Source: a virus
IMG/VR virus record: IMGVR_UViG_3300018422_000008
Coordinates: 1 to 29,602 of that record
Length of the DNA stretch: 29,602 nt
Reading direction: 5' to 3' (one strand)
Position numbers and translations under genes: made by a program. Each line of letters opens with the position of its first letter. Within the stretch, counting starts at the first letter, position 1. Positions 6,016-26,557 of the stretch are shown here, piece by piece. The notes under the pieces were generated by a model. It searched no databases, was not told the origin of the DNA, and was given only the letters and a program-made list of their open reading frames with translations.

Positions 6016-6966
6016 TTATTCGACGGCTTCGGTGCTCAGGATCGAGTCGGTGATTTGGATCGGGATGCCGAAGGCGGAATCGGGCCACGGAGCGACGGCT
6101 TCGAGATTGGCACCGGCCTTGGAGGCGGGGCCGCTGTTGATGACGACGGTGCGTGAGCGCTGGAGCTGGCCGCCGCTGCGGCGGTTCATCCAGATTTCGT
6201 CAGGGCGATAGCCGACCGGGAATTTCTGGAGGAGTTGCGCGATCTTCGCGTCGGTGAGGAGGTCGCCCGTTTCCGAGTCCTGGCCGATGTTGGCGATGCG
6301 GCCGACGCAGTTCAGGTTGCCGATCTGCAAACCAGTCCACGCCGTCAAGCCGGCGGTGCGGCCTTCGTAGGCGAGGCTCGCGGCGTCATACAGCGTTTGA
6401 TCGCGGAAGTCGCCGAGGTTGAAAGTGGTGTTGTTCCCGCCGATGAGCGTCACGTCCTGGTTGCCATACTTAACGAAGTAGGCGCTGCTCTGCACGTTGG
6501 CATCGCTGCCGCCGGAGGTGAGATAAATCGTGGCCGTCGAGGGCGTGGCGGCCTTGATGCCGGGGAAGCCCTTGGAATCGACACTGACGCCGTGCCAGAT
6601 CTGCGAGCCGAGTTCGATGAGCGCCTGGCGCATCACGCCGTTGCTCTCGATCATTTCAAGCGCGGCCATGCCGTCCTCGTTGGCCATGCCGACGGCTTTA
6701 TCCACTTCCACTTGCGCGGCGAGGATGAAGCATTCGACCAGCGAATTCTTGAAAGTGGATTTCGAGGGCGTGACACCTTCGTTGGCCGAGCGGAAGGAAA
6801 CGGACGGGAAGCCCGTGCGCGTGACGGTCCGGTAGGACGTGCCTTTGATTTGGCGGAAGGGGAAGCGGGAGACTTCGGGAGCGAAGCTCAGGTTTTCTTC
6901 AATGAGGCCAACGACGGTGTCGTTGCCATTGAGTTTTGCTACGTCGAGCAGGGTGAGTTTGGCCAT
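6016..6966 (-). CDS. Major capsid protein (316 aa)
   Basis: The length and place after the protease fit the HK97-fold shell protein. Features include an N-terminal arm ('LTLLDVAKLNGNDTVVGLIE'), 'SFAPEVSRFPFRQIKGTSYR' near residues 27-46, the helix-rich middle 'VDKAVGMANEDGMAALEMIE' and a closing strand region 'IPIQITDSIL'. These resemble the GP7-like major capsid group, with no cleaved scaffold domain evident at the N-terminus. The leader TAACGAATTTTTATG resembles that of the next gene. The gap to the upstream coiled-coil gene is 9 nt, so both are likely made from one transcript. I am fairly sure of the role and less sure of the exact family. Confidence 0.8.
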   Translation of the reverse strand: MAKLTLLDVAKLNGNDTVVGLIEENLSFAPEVSRFPFRQIKGTSYRTVTRTGFPSVSFRSANEGVTPSKSTFKNSLVECFILAAQVEVDKAVGMANEDGMAALEMIESNGVMRQALIELGSQIWHGVSVDSKGFPGIKAATPSTATIYLTSGGSDANVQSSAYFVKYGNQDVTLIGGNNTTFNLGDFRDQTLYDAASLAYEGRTAGLTAWTGLQIGNLNCVGRIANIGQDSETGDLLTDAKIAQLLQKFPVGYRPDEIWMNRRSGGQLQRSRTVVINSGPASKAGANLEAVAPWPDSAFGIPIQITDSILSTEAVE

Positions 6967-8287: not shown

Positions 8288-9832
8288 TCAAATTTCCTCC
8301 TTTGCAGCCGCCGCCGGCGCGGCCTGGGGCGTGATGCCGTTGGGCTGTTCGTTCCACAAACTGTTGTAAGCAGTCTCGATGGTGACTTTGAATTTCTTCG
8401 CGATGCGTTCCGCCGCGGCCCATTTGTTGGCGGTGTCGCTCTCGACCTCGATGTCCACGTCGTCGATGTAATCGCCGCGGTTGGCGAGTGCTTTGCGTCG
8501 GGTCTTAAGTCCGTTGGCCACTTCCTGCACGTCCACGTCGCTGTCGTACTTGCGATCGCAGGTCGGTTTGGCCGGCCCCTGATGGCTGAACTTGTACCAT
8601 TCGTCGTTCCAGGGCAGAATCCCCAGCGCTGGGGACATGGCGCAGCTCACGCGAAAACCGTTCCAGCGTTTGCAGGCCGGCTCGATGACGAGGTCCTGGT
8701 CGGCGCCGATGGTCTTGCAAATCTTGTCGATGACGACGCGGCCAGGAGCGCCGCCGATCTTCGTGGGGTCGAGGGAGAAATCGACGGACCAGTCCATGCC
8801 GGCAAAAGCGGAGCGGACGATGGTGGCCTCGAAGTTCTGCGCGTTCGCGCCCGGGTTCTCGTTTTTGAGCGCTTCGAGTTTATGCCCGGCGTTGGCGCGC
8901 ATGTACATGATGTCCACGCCGTCGCTGTTCTGCGTTTCCACCGGCAGCATTTTGGCGGTGTCCGCCGCGCCGGTCATGCCGTCGCCGCCGGCGTCGAATT
9001 CGGATTCGCCCAGGTCGTTCCATTGCACGAGCGCGATCTTCGAACTGACCTTTTGGGAGATGAGTTGGAAGCGCCGGCACTCGGCCACGTCCTGAAAGTC
9101 GAACATGCAACTGCCGAGCATGGAGAAGCCGCGCACCTGGCCGACGTACTCCGGAATGAAAGAGAGGAAACAATCGCGCGCGCTGATGTCCTGGTATTGC
9201 GTGTAGTCGAACGGGTTCTCGCCGGTGAGCACGCGGTAGGCGAGGGGAGCGCCGTAGCCGTTCACGATCACGCCGTCGATGATGCGCGAGCCATCATAGA
9301 AGCCCCCGAAAACGACGGTCTCGTTGAGCGGCGATCCGATGCGATGGCCGGGAATGCACTGGAGCATCGGGTAACCGGTCGCGGTCTTGCAGAGAACGGT
9401 GAGCATGTCTCCGTCACGCTTCACGCTGACGAGCAGGTTGCGGCGGTAAGTCCGCATGTTGTAGGGCCAGCCAGCCACGTCACAGATGAGGTCGTGGTTC
9501 TCCATCCACGTTTCGGCGGCGATGCCCCAATCCTTGCTCTCGGTCGCGCCGTAGAATTGCGGCAGGAACACGCTGGAGGCGTACTCGGCCTGTTCGTGGA
9601 GGGCGCCGCGGACCATGGGAAAGTTCGAGTAGATGTAACGGCCCAGGCTGAGCATGGTCCGGCGGCCCTGGTTCGAGATGTTGCGGTGGACGTCGTAGTC
9701 GAGATTGGGCACGCGCTTGCGATCGCTGGTCTGGGTGGCCGCCTGGACAAGCGCGTTGTTGCCGGTGAAAGCGAGATGGCCGCGGGCCGTGCCGCCGCGG
9801 GGACCGTAGAGCTGGACAGCGTTGGCGCTCAC
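8288..9832 (-). CDS. Portal protein, lambda gpB family (514 aa)
   Basis: The length is near lambda gpB (533 aa). Recognisable features are the N-terminal 'YDVHRNISNQGRRTMLSLGR' with 'FPMVRGALHEQAEYASS', the central 'NPFDYTQYQDISARDCFLSF', and 'AFAGMDWSVDFSLDPTKIGG' typical of Phage_portal_2 proteins. Twelve copies of such proteins form the DNA channel and tail-joining ring. The GTG at 9832 overlaps the stop of the small joining gene by four bases (GTGA). Longer in-frame starts would only re-read that gene. The C-terminus is Ala-rich, and AAGGAGG just before its stop can serve the next gene. Confidence 0.9.
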   Translation of the reverse strand: MSANAVQLYGPRGGTARGHLAFTGNNALVQAATQTSDRKRVPNLDYDVHRNISNQGRRTMLSLGRYIYSNFPMVRGALHEQAEYASSVFLPQFYGATESKDWGIAAETWMENHDLICDVAGWPYNMRTYRRNLLVSVKRDGDMLTVLCKTATGYPMLQCIPGHRIGSPLNETVVFGGFYDGSRIIDGVIVNGYGAPLAYRVLTGENPFDYTQYQDISARDCFLSFIPEYVGQVRGFSMLGSCMFDFQDVAECRRFQLISQKVSSKIALVQWNDLGESEFDAGGDGMTGAADTAKMLPVETQNSDGVDIMYMRANAGHKLEALKNENPGANAQNFEATIVRSAFAGMDWSVDFSLDPTKIGGAPGRVVIDKICKTIGADQDLVIEPACKRWNGFRVSCAMSPALGILPWNDEWYKFSHQGPAKPTCDRKYDSDVDVQEVANGLKTRRKALANRGDYIDDVDIEVESDTANKWAAAERIAKKFKVTIETAYNSLWNEQPNGITPQAAPAAAAKEEI

Positions 9833-10062
9833 GAGAAGTTGACCGTGGTGCGGCGGTAGGACCGGCGTTTGCCGCCAAAGCGCATGCAGTATTCCGCGTC
9901 GATCTGCGCCCAGGTGTTTGGGTCGGCCAGATTGAGCGTGAGCATGTTCTCGGCGCCGGTGTCGCCACTGTTCCACTTGAAGACGCGGGTGCCTTCCAGG
10001 CGCGCAGCCAAAGCGCTGCTGTGCAGGTCTTTTACTTGGGCATCCGAGAGCGAACGGTACAT
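9829..10062 (-). CDS. Small head-tail joining protein, gpW-like candidate (77 aa)
   Basis: The size and the position between terminase and portal match lambda gpW (68 aa), which completes the head after packaging. The protein begins with a helix ('MYRSLSDAQVKDLHSSALAA'), then a strand region ('GTRVFKWNSGDTG'), and ends with a basic tail ('FGGKRRSYRRTTVNFS'), similar in layout to gpW. The ATG at 10062 is preceded by a TGACTCC box and by a multi-hairpin repeat. The end overlaps the portal start by four bases. Confidence 0.6.
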   Translation of the reverse strand: MYRSLSDAQVKDLHSSALAARLEGTRVFKWNSGDTGAENMLTLNLADPNTWAQIDAEYCMRFGGKRRSYRRTTVNFS

Positions 10063-10411: not shown

Positions 10412-12400
10412 TTAAGCAGCCGGCTCTGGTTCTTTCGAGGATTCTTCGGCGGCAATGTTGAGCCGGCCCTTCCGCATGGCGTGGACCACGGACATTTTTT
10501 TGCAGTCGCGCAAATCGTGGCGGCCGGTGGCGACCATCTCAGTGACGATGTATTCCTTGGCGGACCATAATCCATCTTTTTTCTGTTTGTTCTGGTGGGT
10601 CTGCATTTTCTCTCCGTACATGTGCCTGGAGTAAATTTCATTCCAGGCGCCCTTCACGATTTCGCTGCGCGTGGCCGTCGCGTGCTTGTCGCGCCGGGTG
10701 TCCACGATCGCGCTGATGGTCGGCTTGGACCAGTTGATGACGCGGCATTCCTTGCGGCGGCTCGAGCCGTTGGAGAATTTCACGATCATGTCCGCGATCT
10801 TCTCGCGGTCGCGCTGGCCGGCGGTCGGGTCGATGCGCTCCGCGTCTTGCGAGAACGGCCGCATGACAATCTTGGGCTGCTTGGCCGTGCCGACGCGATG
10901 CGGGAACTGCAGCTTCTTGTTGCCGCGGTAAGCCATCCATTGCCGCCAGAGTTCGACGCCTTTGGCATTTTTCTCCAGGTGCCCATGCCGGCAAGCCTCG
11001 ATGGCCATTTCAGCCGCGCGCTGGTGATAGTTGATGTCGAAGCCGACGTCATCGTCCGGCACCAGGAAGCGCGCCTGCAGCTCCTCGATTTCGGCGATGG
11101 TCGTCACCATTTCGCAATGCAGGGTGAGATCGTCGCCGTCGTCGCTCCAGATATCGATCAACGCCCACAGCTCGCGCATCTGGACGTCGAACATGAGCTG
11201 CCGGTGTTTGAACAGGACCAGATCCTTGGTTACCGGACAGATCCATTCGATGAAACCTTCGGGCGTCGGTTCGCTGGTGATCTCGACGGCCTCGAGGCGC
11301 TCGAAATCGTCCAGCTCGGTGTTGTCGAAGAATTCGGCGAGGTATTTTTGCCGAAAGAGAATGAGGCCGGCCCGATCGCCGCGCAGTGCGTTGTTGCGCG
11401 CGGTCAGGCATTTATCGACCAGGATTTCCCACTGCCAGTTGATGAGGCCGTTGTTCGTGAACGATTTCTTGAGCCGCTTTTCTTCGCCGACGCGGATGTG
11501 TTTGCCCTGGCGATTCCAAAAACTCCGGACGCGGGCCTGTTCGCTGAGCGGTGACACGGCCGCGCACGAGGGGCAGACATAACGCACGGTCTCCAGGCAG
11601 CGCGGGATCTGCCAGAGGCCGCGCGCGTCGCGATGGTCGTCCCAGACCAGGCCCATGCGTTCGGGTGAATCCGTGCGCTGCGCATACATGGGCGGGATGT
11701 GGAGCCGGCCGCAATCGCGACAGGGGACGTGCCAGACGTTCAGCTCGCCGGCGTCGTATTGCAGCCACCATTCATCGGTCTGGTCAGCGGCGCGGGCTTG
11801 CTTGAAACCGGCCTGGCTGGTGACGAGCGTTTTATCCAGGCCGAGTTTGATCGCGGTGGCGAGACGGCCCTTGCCTTCGTCGATGATTCCTTTGGGAAAC
11901 TGCCAGGCTTCATCGAACCAGAGATAGGTGATGCGCTTGTGCTGCAGGTTGCGCGTGCTCGGCCCGACGATCCAAATCGGATCTTCAAAGAGAATCTCCT
12001 GCGTCTTGGTCGCGCTCTTGTCCATCGAGTCGATGAGCGCCTTGATGTAGGGAACGGATTCGAGAATGCGCCACGTCCTCGTTTCGCAATGCGACTTGGC
12101 CACGTCGTCCTTGTTGAAGACGCCAAGAAAGCTGGCCGGGAAATTCTGGACGGTCCACGGCAGCCACACGTCGGCGATCAGAGTTTTGCCGTCGCCGACC
12201 GGGGCGTTGATGTTCACTTCGCGCACGCCGGGATCGGCGAGCGCATCGAAGGGCGCCAGGAATTGCCGCGAGTCCAGAACTTCAAAGAGGCCCGGCTTGA
12301 GCGGAGAGCGTAGCGTGATGTTCGCGCGCGCCCAATCGTAGATGGGACGGCGATCGCGCGGGGCGAAACTGTCGCGCCAGGCGCTGCGGATGTGGCTCAC
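10412..12400 (-). CDS. terL: Terminase large subunit, GpA family (662 aa)
   Basis: This is the packaging motor and nuclease. The N-terminal ATPase shows 'YDWARANITLRSPL' (lambda gpA-like entry), a Walker A variant 'NAPVGDGKTLIAD' (residues about 64-76) and Walker B 'TYLWFDEAWQFP'. A zinc-ribbon-like insertion has 'CRDCGR' and, further on, 'CPSC', as in GpA proteins. The nuclease half contains 'DVGFDINYHQRAAE'. The length is close to lambda gpA (641 aa). GpA-type enzymes usually cut at cos sites. The start is the GTG at 12400, with a TGACTCC box 14 nt upstream whose TGA is also the stop of the GIY-YIG gene. The C-terminal tail is Glu/Pro/Ala-rich. Confidence 0.95.
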   Translation of the reverse strand: MSHIRSAWRDSFAPRDRRPIYDWARANITLRSPLKPGLFEVLDSRQFLAPFDALADPGVREVNINAPVGDGKTLIADVWLPWTVQNFPASFLGVFNKDDVAKSHCETRTWRILESVPYIKALIDSMDKSATKTQEILFEDPIWIVGPSTRNLQHKRITYLWFDEAWQFPKGIIDEGKGRLATAIKLGLDKTLVTSQAGFKQARAADQTDEWWLQYDAGELNVWHVPCRDCGRLHIPPMYAQRTDSPERMGLVWDDHRDARGLWQIPRCLETVRYVCPSCAAVSPLSEQARVRSFWNRQGKHIRVGEEKRLKKSFTNNGLINWQWEILVDKCLTARNNALRGDRAGLILFRQKYLAEFFDNTELDDFERLEAVEITSEPTPEGFIEWICPVTKDLVLFKHRQLMFDVQMRELWALIDIWSDDGDDLTLHCEMVTTIAEIEELQARFLVPDDDVGFDINYHQRAAEMAIEACRHGHLEKNAKGVELWRQWMAYRGNKKLQFPHRVGTAKQPKIVMRPFSQDAERIDPTAGQRDREKIADMIVKFSNGSSRRKECRVINWSKPTISAIVDTRRDKHATATRSEIVKGAWNEIYSRHMYGEKMQTHQNKQKKDGLWSAKEYIVTEMVATGRHDLRDCKKMSVVHAMRKGRLNIAAEESSKEPEPAA

Positions 12401-15847: not shown

Positions 15848-16241
15848 TCACACTGTAGCGGCAGTCAATGCGGATAGCGATGTTCAGCCGTCCTCGCTTG
15901 TGCTCTTGCCGAGGAAATCGACGTGCTTCGCCAGCATCCGGAGAACGATCTCCATGTTCTCTTGATGCTTTCTCAGTGAGTCGAGGAACGTCACAAACAA
16001 TCCAACCGTTCTCTGCAGCTCCTCGTTCCAGGTGCTCGAATATACGAAACTCGATCTCGTGCGACTCCAACTCGCGCCCGGTGGCTTTGCTCAACGCCCG
16101 TTGAATGGCCGCGAATGGTTTCATGATCTTCTCCCTCTCCGCCTCGATCGGGGAAAGGACCGGCGCCTTCGCGGGCGGACTCGGCTTGAACGAGCGCCGA
16201 AAAGATTCCGCCGGATCGCCAGTGTTGGGATTCTCGTTCAT
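15798..16241 (-). CDS. Hypothetical protein, C-terminal part probably frameshifted (147 aa as read)
   Basis: The first 80 or so residues look genuine ('AEREKIMKPFAAIQRALSKA', 'GRELESHEIEFRIFEHLERG'). After that this frame becomes Arg- and His-rich. The +1 frame there reads 'EELQRTVGLFVTFLDSLRKH', 'QENMEIVLRMLAKHVDFLGK' and 'STSEDG', ending TGA at 15884-15886. That ending avoids the 50-bp overlap with the LuxR-type gene. The span 15884-16241 is 119 codons plus one base. The native product may therefore be about 118 aa with a helical C-terminus. The ATG at 16241 overlaps the upstream stop (ATGA). The family is not recognised. Confidence 0.55.
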   Translation of the reverse strand: MNENPNTGDPAESFRRSFKPSPPAKAPVLSPIEAEREKIMKPFAAIQRALSKATGRELESHEIEFRIFEHLERGAAENGWIVCDVPRLTEKASREHGDRSPDAGEARRFPRQEHKRGRLNIAIRIDCRYSVNAFDQTTASTGTFDGA

Positions 16242-16609
16242 GCGGCTTTTGCAACGGTGGAAGAAAAGCCGGCCGCGGAATCACTCGCTTCGCGGTGCCT
16301 CGATTCAGGCGCTTCAACGGGGCCGCGACCGGCTAAAACCTCTCGCGAAAAATTTCCAGCGACGTGGGGAAAAATGCGGCCGTTGCGCTGCGCCTGCCTT
16401 CCGATCTCTTCCAGCGCTGATTTGAAATCGGCCTCTGGCGTCGGATCGTATTTGCCTGTTCGGACGCTAGTGCTTTCGTGCACTACCTTTCCGTTGAGCA
16501 GTGCGGAGATGAACGAGTGAGCGACGCGCCGCCGAATCATCCGGTGCGGCGTGCGGATCAGCTCCATGTGATCGCCCCATTCCTTCATGAGCGAGAGCGC
16601 CCAAAGCAC
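16238..16609 (-). CDS. Hypothetical protein with repeat-encoded C-terminus (about 123 aa)
   Basis: I do not recognise the family. The body has 'ALSLMKEWGDHMELIRTPHR' and 'MIRRRVAHSFISALLNGKVV'. The last 30 or so residues ('LAGRGPVEAPESRHREASDS' onward) come from the 80-bp palindromic repeat at 16259-16338 and match the C-terminus of the unrelated gene at 22376-22801. The start is uncertain: GTG at 16609 has AAGGGC just upstream, ATG at 16588 is possible, and ATG at 16684 would overlap the J-domain gene by 56 bp. The stop overlaps the next start (ATGA). Confidence 0.6.
   Translation of the reverse strand: MLWALSLMKEWGDHMELIRTPHRMIRRRVAHSFISALLNGKVVHESTSVRTGKYDPTPEADFKSALEEIGRQAQRNGRIFPHVAGNFSREVLAGRGPVEAPESRHREASDSAAGFSSTVAKAA
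16259..16338 (-). repeat. 80-bp palindromic repeat translated at a gene end, copy 1
   Basis: This copy is identical over 80 bp to 22397-22476. The ends pair as AGCCGGTCGCGG / CCGCGGCCGGCT. Both copies are on the same strand, in the same reading frame, and encode the same 25-residue tail starting LAGRGPVEAPES. Similarity continues beyond the core through the stop codon into the ATGA overlap and the first codons (Met-Asn-Glu) of the next gene. Confidence 0.85.
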
Positions 16610-16628: not shown

Positions 16629-17147
16629 TCAGCCGCTGCGATGGCCCGCGCCGGCGTCCGGATGCGCGACGCGCGCTTTCTCACGATAGGCAGTTTTGAT
16701 TTGTTCGGCGGTCGCGGTCGGCGCCACGCCCAGAATGTCCCACCAGCTCAGGCCGCCTGTGCGGGCCTCGATCTGTTTGAAGCCGGTGAACATCGCCTCA
16801 ATCATGTGCTTCGCGCCCCAGCGTTCCATGCCACGCATCGCCTCGATGGTGAGCGCGATGGCTTGCACGTTGTGCTCGATGCGCAGCCAGCGATCGCACG
16901 GGATGGCCACGCTGCTCGCGTTGTAAGTGAAGTACGCGACCACGCCGCAATCTTTGGGATTCTCCAGGCCGAGCGTGTAGTTGCTGGAAAGCACGAGCGT
17001 CTTGCCGCCGAGCAACTGCACTTCGCGTTTCAATCCAGTGAGCGCGCTGTGCAACGTCTGCTTGAATTTCGCGCGCTCGCGCAGTTTGGCGTCCGTCCGG
17101 GGCCAGCCGGCCGGCCACTGCAACGGGAATGCGGTTGGGTCGCTCAT
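16629..17147 (-). CDS. Phage J-domain protein with truncated J domain (172 aa)
   Basis: The N-terminal 'FPLQWPAGWPRTDAKLRERA' and the middle 'CDRWLRIEHNVQAIALTIEA' with 'MRGMERWGAKHMIEAMFTGF' match a common phage/prophage protein type that ends in a DnaJ-like domain. The C-terminus has helix I/II and the HPD loop ('WWDILGVAPTATAEQIKTAY', 'REKARVAHPD') but stops 10 residues after HPD, so helices III and IV are missing. J domains stimulate DnaK ATPase through HPD, so recruitment of host DnaK is plausible, as lambda P/DnaJ do at the origin. It is coupled to the upstream gene by an ATGA overlap. Confidence 0.8.
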   Translation of the reverse strand: MSDPTAFPLQWPAGWPRTDAKLRERAKFKQTLHSALTGLKREVQLLGGKTLVLSSNYTLGLENPKDCGVVAYFTYNASSVAIPCDRWLRIEHNVQAIALTIEAMRGMERWGAKHMIEAMFTGFKQIEARTGGLSWWDILGVAPTATAEQIKTAYREKARVAHPDAGAGHRSG

Positions 17148-18023: not shown

Positions 18024-18274
18024 CGTTTCCCTTTCTCCAGTCGCTCGATGCGTTCGGTGATGATGTGCTGCTTGTCCTCACTTACCGCCACCGTATGCCC
18101 GCCGGTCTTGCGCAATTGCTCGTGACCGAACTTCTCGAACCAGGCGTTGAACTTTTGGCTGAAGAGCAAGGCGTGATCGTCTTCCTTTTTCGTGGAGTGT
18201 TTGCGTTCCACTTTGTTGAACACCGAAAGCGTGCCATCCGGATGCTCCTGAAACGTGGTCGAGAAAATGATCAT
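18020..18274 (-). CDS. Small hypothetical protein (84 aa)
   Basis: The product begins 'MIIFSTTFQEHPDGTLSVFN' and has a charged helical C-terminus ('DKQHIITERIERLEKGKR'). The ATG at 18274 overlaps the stop of the initiator gene, and its own stop overlaps the zinc-ribbon gene, both as ATGA. An upstream extension of the frame reads as Arg/Ser-rich noise. The family is not recognised. Confidence 0.65.
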   Translation of the reverse strand: MIIFSTTFQEHPDGTLSVFNKVERKHSTKKEDDHALLFSQKFNAWFEKFGHEQLRKTGGHTVAVSEDKQHIITERIERLEKGKR

Positions 18275-19704
18275 CGGATCGTCCGCAGGTTTCGCACGTG
18301 AGGCACGCGCCCGGTGTCTTCCAGTTTTCGCAGCAGCACTCCCAACGGCCGCTTCACGGGGCTGCGCCCCGGATGCTCGCAAAGTTCGATGTAGGCTTCG
18401 ACTTCGTTGAGCTTCTCGTGGACCAGGTTCGGCCATTGCTCGGCCACGGCTTTCCAGCCGATGAAGTTTTTGCAGGGTCCGGCGAAATGGTCCCACTCGT
18501 AGGGCGACAGCCGGGCCATCCGTTCCATCACGCTCGCGGCCAGCTCAGCTTTAGCTAGCTTCTGTACTTCTGTACGATCAGAGCTAGCTATAGCTCCGGC
18601 GCGCGCGCGCGTATCATGTGACGGAGTTCCAAACTTTGGAACTCCGTGCATTTCATCCCCGGAAACATTGGCGTTTTTAATCGGTGTTCCAAAGTTTGGA
18701 ACTCCGTCGTTTTGGGGGTTTGATGAAGTTCCAAACTTTGGAACTTCGTCGATTTTAGCTTTGGTTCCAAACTTTGGAACTCCGTCAGTTTCGGGGTTTG
18801 ATGAAGTTCCAAACTTTGGAACTCCGTCCGCGGCTGGTGTTTTTGATGGAGTTCCAAACTTTGGAACTCCGTGTTTTTCCCCGACTCGGGCCATGTGCTC
18901 CTCGATGCTTTCACCAGGGAGCCACGGTGTCACCGTGGCATTGTCGGGCGCATGGGGTGAAGACCCCGTTGTAGGGGCAGCCAACCCAGCGGCAGACTCC
19001 GCCCCGGTTTCCCGAGACGGAGCAGCCGCGGATTGGCTGGTGGAGCTTTCGGCATCAGGCCGCATCGGCCCGGGACCACTCAACGGCGACGGTATGCGCG
19101 CGCAAGCCGCGCCGCCGCGCTCCATGTGTTCGGCAGCCGCCAGCACAACAGCACTGCCCACCGAAAAATTAAAAGTTCCTCGAAACGAATCAAGCAGGGC
19201 CTCCAGAAGCCCATACTTTTTGGAGAACAATTCGTACTGCGCCGCGTCGGGCGCTCGCTCCGGGTCCAGTTCGAGCAACAGGCTGATTAGCTGTTTTTCC
19301 TCCTCGGCGGAAGTCTCAAATTCCGGCAGCAGTGGTACCATTGCATAAGGCGGCGGGAGCACCGTGAGCCGCAGCGAGAAATGCGGGTCCGGCGCCAGTA
19401 CGCCATCGCGCGCGCGCGTTTCGATTCTCAGCACGCCGCACGTCTCCAGGTGCGTGAGGCAGTCGGAGAGATTGCCCTTCGTCATTTTGGCGAGCCGGCA
19501 GATCACTTCGCGGTTCGGGAAAAGAAACGTGTGCCGGCCCGCGTCCACCGTCACCGGCAGGATCGCGAGCCTCAGCAGCCGCGCCTCGGTGTAGGTGAAC
19601 TGGCGCGTCCACAATTCGGCGCGGACAGCCGCGGCGAGCTGAGCCATCGGATTCCCCGCGCTCTCTGAGCGCGGCGTTGGTTCGACCGTCAAATGTGCGC
19701 TCAT
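18271..19704 (-). CDS. Replication initiator-like protein containing six origin-like iterons (477 aa)
   Basis: The N-terminal part (about residues 15-125) looks like a winged-helix/HTH domain of phage replication initiators ('QFTYTEARLLRLAILPVTVD', 'NREVICRLAKMTKGNLSDCL', 'THLETCGVLRIETRARDG'). A middle linker rich in Ser, Ala and Pro contains six copies of VPKFGT or VPNFGT, produced by DNA palindromes at 18623-18870. The C-terminal 100 residues ('LSPYEWDHFAGPCKNFIGWK') probably contact a helicase loader or helicase. Lambda O has the same plan: N-terminal origin binding, iterons in mid-gene, C-terminal partner binding. The ATG at 19704 overlaps the upstream stop (TGATG). The DnaA-like and J-domain proteins in the same operon fit a replication module. 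Confidence 0.75.
   Translation of the reverse strand: MSAHLTVEPTPRSESAGNPMAQLAAAVRAELWTRQFTYTEARLLRLAILPVTVDAGRHTFLFPNREVICRLAKMTKGNLSDCLTHLETCGVLRIETRARDGVLAPDPHFSLRLTVLPPPYAMVPLLPEFETSAEEEKQLISLLLELDPERAPDAAQYELFSKKYGLLEALLDSFRGTFNFSVGSAVVLAAAEHMERGGAACARIPSPLSGPGPMRPDAESSTSQSAAAPSRETGAESAAGLAAPTTGSSPHAPDNATVTPWLPGESIEEHMARVGEKHGVPKFGTPSKTPAADGVPKFGTSSNPETDGVPKFGTKAKIDEVPKFGTSSNPQNDGVPNFGTPIKNANVSGDEMHGVPKFGTPSHDTRARAGAIASSDRTEVQKLAKAELAASVMERMARLSPYEWDHFAGPCKNFIGWKAVAEQWPNLVHEKLNEVEAYIELCEHPGRSPVKRPLGVLLRKLEDTGRVPHVRNLRTIR
18623..18870. repeat. Six palindromic iterons, probable phage replication origin
   Basis: There are six 23-bp sites with core AGTTCCAAACTTTGGAACT, a near-perfect palindrome. 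They start at 18623, 18683, 18725, 18761, 18803 and 18848. The spacings (60, 42, 36, 42, 45) are all multiples of three, so the host gene stays in frame. Copy 2 has the central base reversed (AAAGTTT) and copies 3 and 5 vary at the outer arms. A less GC-rich stretch with AGCTAGCTATAGCT lies next to the array at about 18580-18595 and could unwind. Clustered palindromic sites inside an initiator gene are the hallmark of lambda-type origins. Confidence 0.8.
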
Positions 19705-20075
19705 CAAGTCGTGTTCATAGCTGAGTCGTTACTGAGGCCGTGGCCGTCTCCGCGTGGGCGGGAACGTTCAGAGGAACTCACGGCGCTGGAAAATTCCCGG
19801 GCTATCTCGCGTAGGTGCGGATCACTTCCGAAAAGCATTTTGTTGATCAGCTTCCTTTTCGCTCGCTGCTCGATCAGGAGAATCGCCCCGTCCGTGCAAC
19901 CGGCCCAGTAGGCAATCTCGTCGCGCGTGTAACTGATGTGCGGATAGCGAATGGAGTGTAGCAGTGCGATGCCAAGATCGATCCGGAGTGATTTCTCCAG
20001 TCCAGGCCGCACGCTCGCGTCCTGTTGCTCCTGACGCATCCGCTGCCGGCGATAAGGTGAGATTGTCGTGCTCAT
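19704..20075 (-). CDS. HTH-like early regulator or replication accessory (123 aa)
   Basis: A helical core reads 'LRIDLGIALLHSIRYPHISY', 'TRDEIAYWAGCTDGAILLIE' and 'QRAKRKLINKML', reminiscent of sigma-region-like HTH domains in which 'T..EIA...G.....I..IE..A..KL' forms the recognition helix. DNA binding is therefore likely; the target is unknown. It lies directly before the initiator gene. The ATG at 20075 overlaps the upstream stop (ATGA). Confidence 0.65.
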   Translation of the reverse strand: MSTTISPYRRQRMRQEQQDASVRPGLEKSLRIDLGIALLHSIRYPHISYTRDEIAYWAGCTDGAILLIEQRAKRKLINKMLFGSDPHLREIAREFSSAVSSSERSRPRGDGHGLSNDSAMNTT

Positions 20076-20671
20076 GCGGTTTCGTAGGGCTGCCAAATGG
20101 TGCGCAGGAATTCCATCTCGCGATCCTGCGGCCTCACGTACGGCAATTGCAGCGCAGTATAAAAATCCGCCTCAAATTTTAACGGGACCGGCTCCCCGTG
20201 CAGCATCAGCCCTTCGTACGGGTTCCAATGCCCTTTCAACTCCTCGGCGCGCTGGCAGGCCCACACGTTGTGCTGAACCGATCCAGTCCGGCAAAGCGTG
20301 CGCGCATCGAGTTGCACGCCCTTGCTCGTGACGAGTAAAAGATTCTGCGCGTCCGGTTTCGGCTCCGGACCCGGCGCCCCTTTTTTTCCGAGCCACTTCG
20401 GCCGCACCGGGTCCGTGTTCAGGCTCACGTATTGAATCAGGAATTCACGCAGTAGGTTCGCGTGCTCTGTATGCGCGTCGAACATTTCCCCGAGCGCTCT
20501 TCGTTTCTCGTACTTCGGCACGCAGACCACATCGATGTCACCGCACATCGGCTGCTCGCGCCGGATGCTGCCGACCGTGAGAATATTTTCGCAATAAGGA
20601 GCGAGCCAGGCGCATACCTGGTCCGCGCGCGAGCGCGCCGTCCGCAAGTCCATTGGTTGCGCCTGGCTCAC
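20072..20671 (-). CDS. Polymerase X-like nucleotidyltransferase (199 aa)
   Basis: The catalytic motif of the Pol-beta/X superfamily is present: 'ILTVGSIRREQPMCGDIDVV' followed by 'CVP', with GS and DxD in the expected spacing, and a later 'VQLDARTL' strand that may supply the third Asp. 'HNVWACQRAEELKGHWNPYE' and 'GLMLHGEPV' follow, as in phage nucleotidyltransferases of this type. The helix-hairpin-helix and finger domains of full Pol X are absent, so a DNA polymerase role is uncertain. The start is the GTG at 20671, overlapping the upstream stop (GTGA). Confidence 0.75.
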   Translation of the reverse strand: MSQAQPMDLRTARSRADQVCAWLAPYCENILTVGSIRREQPMCGDIDVVCVPKYEKRRALGEMFDAHTEHANLLREFLIQYVSLNTDPVRPKWLGKKGAPGPEPKPDAQNLLLVTSKGVQLDARTLCRTGSVQHNVWACQRAEELKGHWNPYEGLMLHGEPVPLKFEADFYTALQLPYVRPQDREMEFLRTIWQPYETA

Positions 20672-21114
20672 GCCGCCTTCCTTTCCGTCGCAACCGCGCT
20701 CAAGCCCCATGAAACCGAACTGGGCGAATAACCGAACTGCCGCGCGATCGCGGTCTGGTTCAGGCGCAACTCAACGTTCGCGCGCAGCCACACTTCCTCG
20801 CGCGCCGCGACCAGCGTGCGAAAGCGGCGCCGCGAAAGAATGGCCTGCACCGGAATGCCCCGCGCCACCGCGACCTCCAGGCAAATCCGCATCAGGCGCG
20901 AATCAGTAATCTCACAACCCGCCTGCGCCCCGGCGATTTGCAGCCAGGCGCGGCGGTGATAGGAGCGGTTACTGTGGGCGGCGTGATATTCCCTGGTGAG
21001 CGAAGGAGCGATCGGGCGCGGAGCCGGCGCGGGCAGCCAGTCCGAGGTCAGCAGCCGGACCTGATCCGGCGTCAGGGCAAACCGTTGCAGGGTGAGTTGC
21101 TCGAACGCGCTCAT
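20668..21114 (-). CDS. DnaA domain IV-like DNA-binding protein (148 aa)
   Basis: The C-terminal 65 residues match the DnaA DNA-binding domain layout: 'ILSRRRFRTLVAAREEVWLR', then 'LRLNQTAIARQFGYSPSSVS' and 'WGL', corresponding to the basic loop, long helix and HTH that bind DnaA boxes. There is no AAA+ ATPase domain. The protein could target host origin boxes or the phage origin. The N-terminus has 'HAAHSNRSYHRRAWLQIAGA'. The ATG at 21114 overlaps the upstream stop (ATGA). Confidence 0.65.
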   Translation of the reverse strand: MSAFEQLTLQRFALTPDQVRLLTSDWLPAPAPRPIAPSLTREYHAAHSNRSYHRRAWLQIAGAQAGCEITDSRLMRICLEVAVARGIPVQAILSRRRFRTLVAAREEVWLRANVELRLNQTAIARQFGYSPSSVSWGLSAVATERKAA

Positions 21115-21521
21115 GGGAGAATGATGCTGTGCGCCGCGGGCGCGCACGCGCTGCAAAGATTTTCTTCAACCCAATGACAGCCACCGGGGCAGGCCATCTC
21201 GTTCGTGCAGCCGCACACGCGGCAACGCGAGCCTCGGACAATAGGCACGTCGTATTCCTCGCTCCAGCCGAGTTCCAGGAACTCGGCAATCTCCGGCGCC
21301 TGCTCGCCGATGCTCTCCTGCGCATCGCGCGCGAAACCTTCCACCGTCTCGCGAGCGCCGCCGTTAAAGTCGGGATGCCGGCAGGCGAGCTGCAGCGCGC
21401 TGATGATTTGCATGGCCGTCCCCAGATCGAGTTGCAGAACTACGGGCGTGGCCCCGAGCCGTTCCGCGGCCAACAGCGCCCGCTGCATAAGCTCTTGAGG
21501 GTTTGTCTCTAGCGCGCTCAT
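21111..21521 (-). CDS. Zinc-finger protein (136 aa)
   Basis: The N-terminal 90 residues are helical ('LGTAMQIISALQLACRHPDF', 'AREVEGFARD'-like). The C-terminus holds a metal site widely found in phage proteins: 'CRVCGCTNEMACPGGCHWVE' then 'ENLCSAC'. The six Cys can bind one or two zinc ions. A DNA or protein adaptor role in replication is plausible; no catalytic residues are seen. The ATG at 21521 overlaps the upstream stop (ATGA). Confidence 0.75.
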   Translation of the reverse strand: MSALETNPQELMQRALLAAERLGATPVVLQLDLGTAMQIISALQLACRHPDFNGGARETVEGFARDAQESIGEQAPEIAEFLELGWSEEYDVPIVRGSRCRVCGCTNEMACPGGCHWVEENLCSACAPAAHSIILP

Positions 21522-22144: not shown

Positions 22145-22379
22145 AGTGCGGGAGATATTTCTGTAGGCGGCTTGCACGGCCGATGCGCTTGAGCGCGCGG
22201 CGGAAAGAGTTGGCCGGTTGCAGCGAATCAATGTGCGTGGTGATTTCATCACGCATCACTTCCAGGTCGCGGATGCGATGCAAAACCGGCACGGCTTCAT
22301 CCACGGCCACGCGCGCGATCGCGTCGAGCGCGGGCACCGTCTGGCCGCTGCCATAACCTTTGTCCTCCACTTCGTTCAT
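22141..22379 (-). CDS. Small early protein, 3' end probably frameshifted (about 79 codons)
   Basis: From the ATG at 22379 the protein reads 'MNEVEDKGYGSGQTVPALDA', then a helical 'VDEAVPVLHRIRDLEVMRDE' and 'NSFRRALKRIGRASRLQKYL'. The frame does not stop here but runs into the zinc gene at 21696, giving a 227-aa fusion. A neighbouring frame ends 'CKPPTEISPAL' with TGA at 22141-22143, which would overlap the membrane microprotein start in the usual ATGA way. I infer a one-base shift between about 22150 and 22200. If it is not a shift, the 227-aa protein is real and the microprotein gene is nested. Confidence 0.45.
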
Positions 22380-22801
22380 GCGGCTTCCGCGATGGGGGAA
22401 GAAAAGCCGGCCGCGGAATCACTCGCTTCGCGGTGCCTCGATTCAGGCGCTTCAACGGGGCCGCGACCGGCTAAAAGTTTCTTGGACTTCCGGCGCACGC
22501 CGTAAATTTCTGCGGTGTCCAGATAGTCCAGTCCCAGCTTGCGGACCATGATGCGCTCGAAGTCGAACTGATATTTGGCCAGGTCGCTGGCGCGGTTCTG
22601 TTCCCGAGCCACCATGATCTGAATGAGCAGGTGGACGTGCTCACGTTTCCTGTTCTGTCGGATCTGCCGCTGCTTCTGCCACTCGCGAAGCTTTTCGCAC
22701 TCGGCGCACGCGCAAACCCACGCGGTCTTTTCCTTCCCCGCCGCATCGAAGTGCGCCAGAGCGATGCCGTATTTTTCGTGGAAGTTCAGCGACCCTTTCA
22801 T
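22376..22801 (-). CDS. Hypothetical Cys-containing protein with repeat-encoded C-terminus (141 aa)
   Basis: The product begins 'MKGSLNFHEKYGIALAHFDA', has a 'CACAECEKL' cluster that may bind metal, a charged helix ('REWQKQRQIRQNRKREHVHL') and 'QFDFERIMVRKLGLDYLDTA'. The last 30 or so residues derive from the 80-bp repeat and match the tail of the protein at 16238-16609. The ATG at 22801 overlaps the upstream stop (ATGA); an upstream in-frame extension to 22834 is less likely. The family is not recognised. Confidence 0.65.
   Translation of the reverse strand: MKGSLNFHEKYGIALAHFDAAGKEKTAWVCACAECEKLREWQKQRQIRQNRKREHVHLLIQIMVAREQNRASDLAKYQFDFERIMVRKLGLDYLDTAEIYGVRRKSKKLLAGRGPVEAPESRHREASDSAAGFSSPIAEAA
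22397..22476 (-). repeat. 80-bp palindromic repeat translated at a gene end, copy 2
   Basis: This copy is identical to 16259-16338 and on the same strand. It encodes the C-terminal tail of the gene at 22376-22801. Terminal inverted repeats are AGCCGGTCGCGG / CCGCGGCCGGCT. As in copy 1, the following gene starts within an ATGA overlap and begins Met-Asn-Glu. Confidence 0.85.
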
Positions 22802-25168: not shown

Positions 25169-26557
25169 ATGGGTTCCTCTGCGGCAAACAGCGGCGCGCT
25201 TATTCGCGTCCGCAGTGATGGTGGTGCGCAAGCACCGGGCGGCACTGTGCTGGCGCACATCAACTTCAAGCGCGGCCCGCGCGCGGCGCCCAAGCACATT
25301 CGCGACTCGGGCGAGGATGGCAGCGTTCTGGACGAAGGGCGGCGCTGGCAGATCCGCTGGCACATGGATGGCAAGCTGCAGCGCAAACGCTACTCCAAAC
25401 AGAAATTCACCCGTGCGCGCGTCGAGGAATTCCTGCGCACCGAACTGGCCAAGAAAGCGGCCGGGGATATTTCCATCGCCACCCTCAGCCGCGAGGTCCG
25501 CGAGATCGTCCGCTTCTGTGAACTGCACGGCATCACCATTCGCGACCTGCAGTTGCTCCCCTGGATGAAACAGCGCGGCACGCAAATGGAGGAACGCACC
25601 GGGCAAAAGATTTCTCCCGTCCAATTCTTCGAAGAGGCGTGCGTCGCCCGCGAGCAGCGTCACTCCCAAAGCTGCCGCACTGTCCCGCAAGTCGTGGAGT
25701 CGTTCCTCGCGGAGATCGAAGCGCGCTCCGAACGGCAAGGCAGCAGCGGATGCCACTGGCGGAACCTGCGCGCGCGGTTGAACAAATTCGCGGCGGTGTT
25801 CACGGGACCGGTTTCGTCGTTGGAACGGCCGCTCGTCCAGTCCTGGCTCAAGGGCCTCCCGTACGCGGCCAAGACGGTGAACCATTATCGAGCGGCCGTG
25901 GTCGAGGCGCTCTATTTCGCGAAAGGGCAGGGGCACTGCACGCGCGAGCTGGTCGAGAGCATTGCGGACATCGATCCTTACAAGCTGATCGATCGCGTGG
26001 CCACTCCCTACAGCGTGAAGGAGATGCGCGCGATTCTGGACTACACGCACGCGCACCGGCTCAAACATTTACCGACGATCGTGCTCGTCGCGTTCTGCGG
26101 CGTACGAGTCTGCGAAGTGGCCGGCGAGAAAGGGTTTTTGGATTGGGGCGACATCGACCTGGACGAGCGCGTCATTCACATCCCGGCCAAGCTGGCCAAG
26201 AAACGGAAGAAGCGAGACGCGCCCGTCACCGAGAACGCGTACGCCTGGCTGAAGCTGGTGGCGAAACCGAGCGGCGCGATCTGTCCGGTGGACCGCCCGA
26301 GCGAAGCGGCGACGCGCATCCTGGTGAACGCGCGCGTGCCCCGAAAAAAGAACGGGTTCCGGAGCGCGTTTATTTCGCATCGCGTGGACCTCACGAAAGA
26401 CCTAAAAGCCACGGCCATCGAAGCCGGCACCAGCGTCGGCCGCATCGAGAGCAACTACTACGCGATCCGCGGGAAGGGCGAGCCGCAAGCCTACTTCGAA
26501 TTGCGCCCGCGCCAGTTGCAGTTGGACCTCGGGTTGAATTCGGGGAGCCGGTCCTGA
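25169..26557 (+). CDS. int: Tyrosine recombinase, phage integrase (462 aa)
   Basis: The catalytic domain is recognisable: 'LVAFCGVRVCEVAG' with Arg313, a basic beta hairpin 'AKLAKKRKKRDAP' supplying the Lys, 'KNGFRSAFISHR' with Arg398, and 'VGRIESNYYAI' with Tyr430/431. The first His of the usual HxxR box is Asn (NGFR), as I recall for related integrases of this bacterial group. Residues 55-90 form an N-terminal arm-binding-like segment ('RRWQIRWHMDGKLQRKRYSK'), and 170-255 the core-binding SAM-like domain. It ends about 190 bp before a tRNA 3' fragment, as expected. The start is uncertain; ATG 25169 is the first available and the extreme N-terminus is low in features. Confidence 0.92.
   Translation: MGSSAANSGALIRVRSDGGAQAPGGTVLAHINFKRGPRAAPKHIRDSGEDGSVLDEGRRWQIRWHMDGKLQRKRYSKQKFTRARVEEFLRTELAKKAAGDISIATLSREVREIVRFCELHGITIRDLQLLPWMKQRGTQMEERTGQKISPVQFFEEACVAREQRHSQSCRTVPQVVESFLAEIEARSERQGSSGCHWRNLRARLNKFAAVFTGPVSSLERPLVQSWLKGLPYAAKTVNHYRAAVVEALYFAKGQGHCTRELVESIADIDPYKLIDRVATPYSVKEMRAILDYTHAHRLKHLPTIVLVAFCGVRVCEVAGEKGFLDWGDIDLDERVIHIPAKLAKKRKKRDAPVTENAYAWLKLVAKPSGAICPVDRPSEAATRILVNARVPRKKNGFRSAFISHRVDLTKDLKATAIEAGTSVGRIESNYYAIRGKGEPQAYFELRPRQLQLDLGLNSGSRS
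25224..25235 (+). repeat. GTGC-GCAA-GCAC hairpin motif near the integrase start
   Basis: This is a 12-base copy of the motif at 3935, 13856 and 23428, here 55 bases after the integrase ATG and in plus orientation. Confidence 0.35.

Follow-up and report, generated by a model that had tools for sequence, protein, structure and literature searches.

We asked what six near-identical palindromes are doing in the middle of a single phage gene, and whether they could mark a replication origin. Phage lambda and its relatives are known to have their origins within the initiator gene. The gene lies in the leftward early region of a prophage. The window (the whole 29,602-nt stretch analyzed here, positions 1 to 29,602 of IMG/VR record IMGVR_UViG_3300018422_000008) is a provirus, with phage genes, an integrase, and a bacterial flank (Table 1). 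The closest match to a protein encoded in the flank came from genome G306, at 70% identity, and identity elsewhere did not exceed 63%, which very probably places the host in the order of G306 within the Verrucomicrobiota.

Scanning the 29.6-kb window for AGTTCCAAANTTTGGAACT with at most one mismatch gave six matches (Table 1), against a chance expectation of 0.02 from shuffled sequences. No further site was found in the window even when three mismatches were allowed. The palindromes share the core GTTCCAAA[C/G]TTTGGAAC and form an array at 18625–18868. The initial annotation had described six palindromes of 23 bp: the six copies stand, and their 17-bp core is symmetric around the center base without flaw in every one, but the full 23-bp symmetry is flawless in copies 1, 3, and 6 only. 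Its description of the spacing and coding was confirmed. Start-to-start distances are 60, 42, 36, 42, and 45 bp, every one divisible by three, and on the minus (coding) strand all six copies fall in frame 0, encoding VPKFGT five times and VPNFGT once. The array is also the 250 bp of lowest GC content in the window (0.448 vs. 0.605 for the window as a whole).

Table 1. Coordinates of the palindrome array, the gene that contains it, and landmarks of the prophage
Feature	Position	Strand	Basis or remark
Palindromic iteron nearest the gene 3' end	18625..18643	-	Pattern scan; symmetry reaches 18621-18647
Palindromic iteron, sole VPNFGT-encoding copy	18685..18703	-	Pattern scan
Palindromic iteron	18727..18745	-	Pattern scan
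Palindromic iteron	18763..18781	-	Pattern scan
Palindromic iteron	18805..18823	-	Pattern scan
Palindromic iteron nearest the wHTH-coding part	18850..18868	-	Pattern scan
Array plus spacers, proposed origin region	18619..18879	.	GC 0.45, the minimum for the window
O-like replication initiator gene, 477 aa from ATG	18271..19704	-	wHTH linked to Phage_rep_O via intermediates
Part coding for the predicted winged-helix domain (about aa 18-113)	19366..19653	-	AlphaFold2 pLDDT and weak Foldseek matches
Upstream ORF, stop overlapping initiator start (TGATG)	19704..20096	-	Without family match
Terminase	10412-12400	-	Family search
Portal	8288-9976	-	Family search
GP7-type capsid protein	6016-6966	-	Family search
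Integrase	25169-26557		Family search
Pyruvate dehydrogenase E1 (bacterial flank)	from 26830		Family search

The array-bearing ORF (18271–19707, minus strand) is 478 aa long. Translation probably begins at the ATG at 19704, because this codon overlaps the stop codon of the upstream ORF, and the overlap suggests translational coupling of the two. The encoded protein consists of a winged helix (approximately aa 18–116), a linker that holds the array (approximately aa 280–360), and a C-terminal domain (approximately aa 375–477). It had no direct match in Pfam, PHROG, or NCBIfam, and thus none above the gathering cut-off of Pfam Phage_rep_O (PF04492). A direct profile comparison with Phage_rep_O gave a probability of 22.8% (E 9e-4). 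The N terminus matched a profile built from seven array-bearing relatives with 97.2% probability, and that profile matched the Phage_rep_O profile, which includes lambda O, with 98.4% probability. On these profile comparisons, the winged helix-turn-helix (wHTH) domain of the window protein is linked to Phage_rep_O through intermediate sequences, and only weakly when compared directly. AlphaFold2 predicted an N-terminal winged helix with a core pLDDT of about 75–90, for which the best Foldseek matches were weak ones to MarR-type winged helices (E 5e-3).

Direct searches with the 478-aa protein found no homologue, whether in viral contigs, in phages or plasmids (both by tblastn), or among 196 genomes from the host's order. 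A class-wide search of 384 genomes with the N-terminal domain returned one distant relative, L212 in genome G526, with an E-value of 7e-4 that applies to one genome and is, alone, not significant over 384. Its longer contig, L215, the nearest homologue by locus, is a provirus with a terminase and an integrase; the gene on it has GTTCCCGANTCGGGAAC palindromes in the linker that holds the array in the window, and its protein scores 26.7 bits against Phage_rep_O (cut-off 28.7). The weak class-wide matches L213 and L214 turned out to be unrelated proteins. The terminase gave no result as a synteny anchor. A nearby DnaJ-domain protein used in the same way led to 48 relatives among viral contigs and phages, and in none of them could the initiator gene be detected.

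We compared this arrangement with that of lambda. The lambdoid origin sits mid-gene in O, every iteron is an inverted repeat, and in Stx phages two extra iterons add 13 residues to O in frame (PMC7466680). The iterons of lambda itself (NC_001416) lie at aa 117–145 of O in frames 0, 2, 2, and 1, and changes in their number add or remove residues in frame. The window has the same plan that the initial annotation had proposed: several inverted-repeat iterons in a coding linker, located between an initiator wHTH and a C-terminal domain. It differs in the iteron word (TCCCTCAAAACGAGGGA in lambda, GTTCCAAACTTTGGAAC in the window), in the use of frame 0 throughout, and in spacings of 36–60 bp, which exceed the usual 20–24 bp of lambda and are not all multiples of a helical turn. 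Lambda has a tract of 22% GC over the 40 bp adjoining the iterons, followed by gene P. By contrast, no 40-bp block at the window array falls below 42% GC, so that a discrete, lambda-like AT-rich tract beside the iterons is absent, and family searches recognized no P, nor any other helicase loader or helicase, among the main ORFs of the window. A helicase loader may be present in the window yet unrecognized.

The iteron sequence had also been called unrelated; this is true against lambda, but the word GTTCC-N7-GGAAC proved to be common to many other phages. A search of viral contigs for two such palindromes 15–45 bp apart returned 45 stretches, against a chance estimate of about one, and many of these fall in ORFs encoding a wHTH domain at the N terminus. 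The same pair search of 289 bacterial genomes found seven forward places in five genomes, compared with none for the reversed control. Some pair-search matches were ruled out as initiators, being tail-like or unrelated ORFs, and a search of viral contigs for single palindromes gave 20 unconnected matches, close to chance. About 18 further initiator genes, O-like or of the helix-turn-helix kind and belonging to widely differing phages, hold GTTCC-N7-GGAAC arrays in the corresponding linker. Members of this class (L226, L232, L233, L237, L243, L246, L253, and others from IMG/VR) share the arms and the position within the gene with the window array, whereas their inner 7 bp differ from it, their spacing is usually 19–26 bp, and their frames are mixed. 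Unlike the window protein, nine of the array ORFs tested exceed the Phage_rep_O cut-off (L232, L233, L237, L243, L253, L222, L230, L239, and L250), and L235 and L259 carry HTH_36 plus DnaT. Across the class, the outermost inner base pair was complementary in 38 of 55 palindromes (shuffle mean 24.7, maximum 34), and no clear covariation was seen at the two inner pairs next to the center.

When initiators were retrieved by protein similarity and not by pattern, the same linker again held palindrome arrays, made of other words: GTTATC in Paraburkholderia phage IPK, AGTTACT in Brevibacillus phage Jimmer2, GTTGGTA in Geobacillus phage GBK2, TGTCTC in Escherichia phage mEpX1 and Proteus phage Pm34, and TTACCT in Klebsiella phage KO-TP1. 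The IPK protein is 58% identical to that of L253 over 96% of its length, yet the arms differ and the position is the same. Because other words occupy the same linker and the arms of IPK and L253 differ, the array is, as far as these sequences tell, conserved while its word changes, as expected of initiator–target pairs. In a set comprising KO-TP1 and 79 related O genes, 17-bp palindromes with 5-bp arms and a 7-bp center sit in the same linker as in the window, and the peptide LPESGK parallels VPxSGT. The set differs from the window in its arms (TTACC/GGTAA), its enterobacterial phages, and its use of frames 0 and 2. TTACC-N7-GGTAA arrays of three to nine copies were present in the linker of 79 out of 80 lambdoid O genes. 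Two of these genes, L309 with nine iterons and L300 with six compared with four or five in relatives, display in-frame amplification of the LPESGK-coding unit.

When L233, Jimmer2, and GBK2 were aligned, arms GTTCC, GTTAC, and GTTGG went with KNH, KEH, and KSD in the recognition helix. We tentatively suggest, at somewhat less than even confidence, that the pairing of DNA-binding domain and target in O-like genes can be read as a recognition code, and that GTTCC-N7-GGAAC is a very old or repeatedly evolved specificity. If so, phages from several bacterial phyla would share this specificity, and such genes, in their thousands, would amount to a self-annotated collection of protein–DNA pairs. Since binder and target lie in one gene, a winged-helix recognition code is directly testable in this class. 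The shared iteron word and the possible helix-to-arm code are the most promising part of this work, although not established.

We consider it highly likely that these palindromes serve as iterons for the replication origin of the prophage, embedded in the linker of the O-like initiator gene that the prophage itself carries. A dimer of the N-terminal winged helix would bind to each palindrome; once occupied, the array would wrap and destabilize the AT-richest stretch of the phage genome, leading to strand opening; and the C-terminal domain would recruit the replicative helicase. We infer origin activity from the confirmed array, the link between the wHTH domain and Phage_rep_O, the array-bearing relatives with Phage_rep_O, and conservation at the DNA level across the class (below). 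The case is weakened by the lack of a direct family match, of an AT-rich tract, and of a loader, by the longer spacings, and by two repeat units of L215.

Those two units bear on whether the DNA or the peptide is selected. A VPxFGT repeat in a flexible linker might contact a partner protein, with the palindrome a by-product of codon choice, and several observations lean this way: the six window copies share one frame and one peptide, save for K or N; frame 0 is the most frequent in the class (54 of 88 palindromes, with 18 and 16 in the other two frames); and the L215 units in question keep VPxSGT after losing symmetry at synonymous sites. Because frame 0 is commoner than the other frames, the peptide may not be wholly neutral. 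Yet in 14 of 20 O-like genes the palindromes were spread over different frames, the same DNA word being read as VPxxGT, SQNGN, or FPKRE across the class, and therefore the peptide does not appear to be what is kept. Where VPxxGT was encoded, 37 of 40 units in ten genes were exact palindromes, despite GTT and GGA being minority codons. Within the window, the codons for V, P, F, and G keep the same third base from copy to copy; these codons serve about 10%, 9%, 28%, and 10% of the respective residues elsewhere, and the only variable core base is the symmetry center, which alters K to N. This invariance could stem in part from recent duplication, though the spacers have diverged. We also compared third bases of codons with identical amino acids inside and outside the arms, covering class relatives and lambdoid genes, the window gene having no known close homologues. 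Among class relatives, third bases were the same in 17/17, 11/11, 15/15, and 16/17 cases in the arms compared with 60/129, 63/139, 65/110, and 105/178 outside, a comparison biased by the fact that these genes had been found by their palindromes. In the lambdoid set, 80 O genes picked by protein alone, the more diverged pairs, which are not independent of each other, gave 11/11 versus 71/123 and 13/13 versus 72/126. No such effect was seen in the verrucomicrobial pair L246 and L215 (3/6 in arms vs. 46/101 outside). The proposal in the initial annotation that the DNA repeat rather than the peptide is under selection is thereby supported: outside the L246/L215 pair, third bases in the arms are near-invariant and the rest of the gene has drifted. 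The opposite pattern, peptide kept and palindrome lost, which the initial annotation had named as grounds for refutation, was encountered in part, in the two L215 units. A peptide-driven origin of the repeats seems to us highly improbable.

The array might instead be an operator or partition site bound by the same protein, for autoregulation or prophage segregation, roles in which wHTH proteins and palindrome arrays also serve. This would fit with MarR-type repressors as the nearest folds and with the missing AT-rich tract and loader. However, the sites lie far inside the gene with none upstream, promoter and terminator predictions near the array were no better than those for shuffled sequences, and the relatives are replication initiators, some of which are followed by a helicase loader or helicase gene (Geobacillus GBK2, Klebsiella KO-TP1); we regard such a role as very unlikely. 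A third account would have a palindrome that is dispersed through the chromosome, like REP sequences or Rickettsia palindromic elements, invade the gene in frame. Kiritimatiellia and Lentisphaerae-like genomes, from the broad phylum that also includes the host, are very rich in the word TTCCAANNNTTGGAA: there are 3044 exact copies in the 6.7 Mb of G001, where the reversed control has none, and counts in several other such genomes range from hundreds to more than a thousand. Scanning genomes for TTCCAANNNTTGGAA pairs yielded more than 100 stretches, for the most part from these two groups. Invasion is nevertheless extremely unlikely in our estimation. In 196 genomes of the host order, a sample that does not include the host's own genome, TTCCAANNNTTGGAA occurred as single copies in nine genomes, about the level expected by chance, and we rejected the chromosomal repeat as the source of the array on this basis. 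Moreover, 73 of 99 chromosomal sites lay outside coding-like ORFs, the word is absent from the rest of the window, and the same arms are found in O-like genes of unrelated phages and hosts.

Returning to the origin reading, the window origin so proposed is a new, divergent case of an origin within an initiator gene. We found no description of this arrangement for Verrucomicrobiota phages in the literature searched (open-access text). A probable replication origin of a Verrucomicrobiota prophage is thus located in a gene left blank by standard annotation, and the lambda layout reaches initiators beyond Pfam detection. The array can also be used as a probe, as the palindrome-pair search recovered initiator genes missed by domain searches.

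The chromosomal repeat is a separate lead. Across G001–G016 (L026–L141, L361–L369), TTCCAANNNTTGGAA is mostly intergenic and often paired at a distance of 31–33 bp (three helical turns), with TGA or TCA at the center, and sites lie a median of 55 bp from gene 3' ends. We found no published description of this repeat in the literature searched; its role may be structural or regulatory, comparable to that of HIP1 or BIMEs.

Finally, we noted several features of the surrounding genes. Two genes upstream of the initiator, a small protein (20668–21156, minus strand) has a weak match to Bac_DnaA_C (E 0.0085, under the cut-off) and is possibly a stand-alone DnaA domain IV. The early region also encodes a DNA polymerase beta-like nucleotidyltransferase with palm and thumb domains (20072–20710, minus strand). 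Downstream from the initiator lies the DnaJ-domain protein used above for synteny (16629–17147, minus strand), a phrog_9210 member with a DnaJ domain at its C-terminal end. Because lambda replication requires host DnaJ, a phage-encoded J protein close to an O-like gene is suggestive. In another verrucomicrobial phage, an ORF beside the phrog_9210 gene (L158, 6913–8004) contains about 20 tandem GHAAATGxx repeats. The last 30 residues of two window ORFs are near-identical (LAGRGPVEAPESRHREASDSAAGFSS; about 16238–16340 and 22376–22480), which suggests that a DNA segment of ∼100 bp is repeated there.
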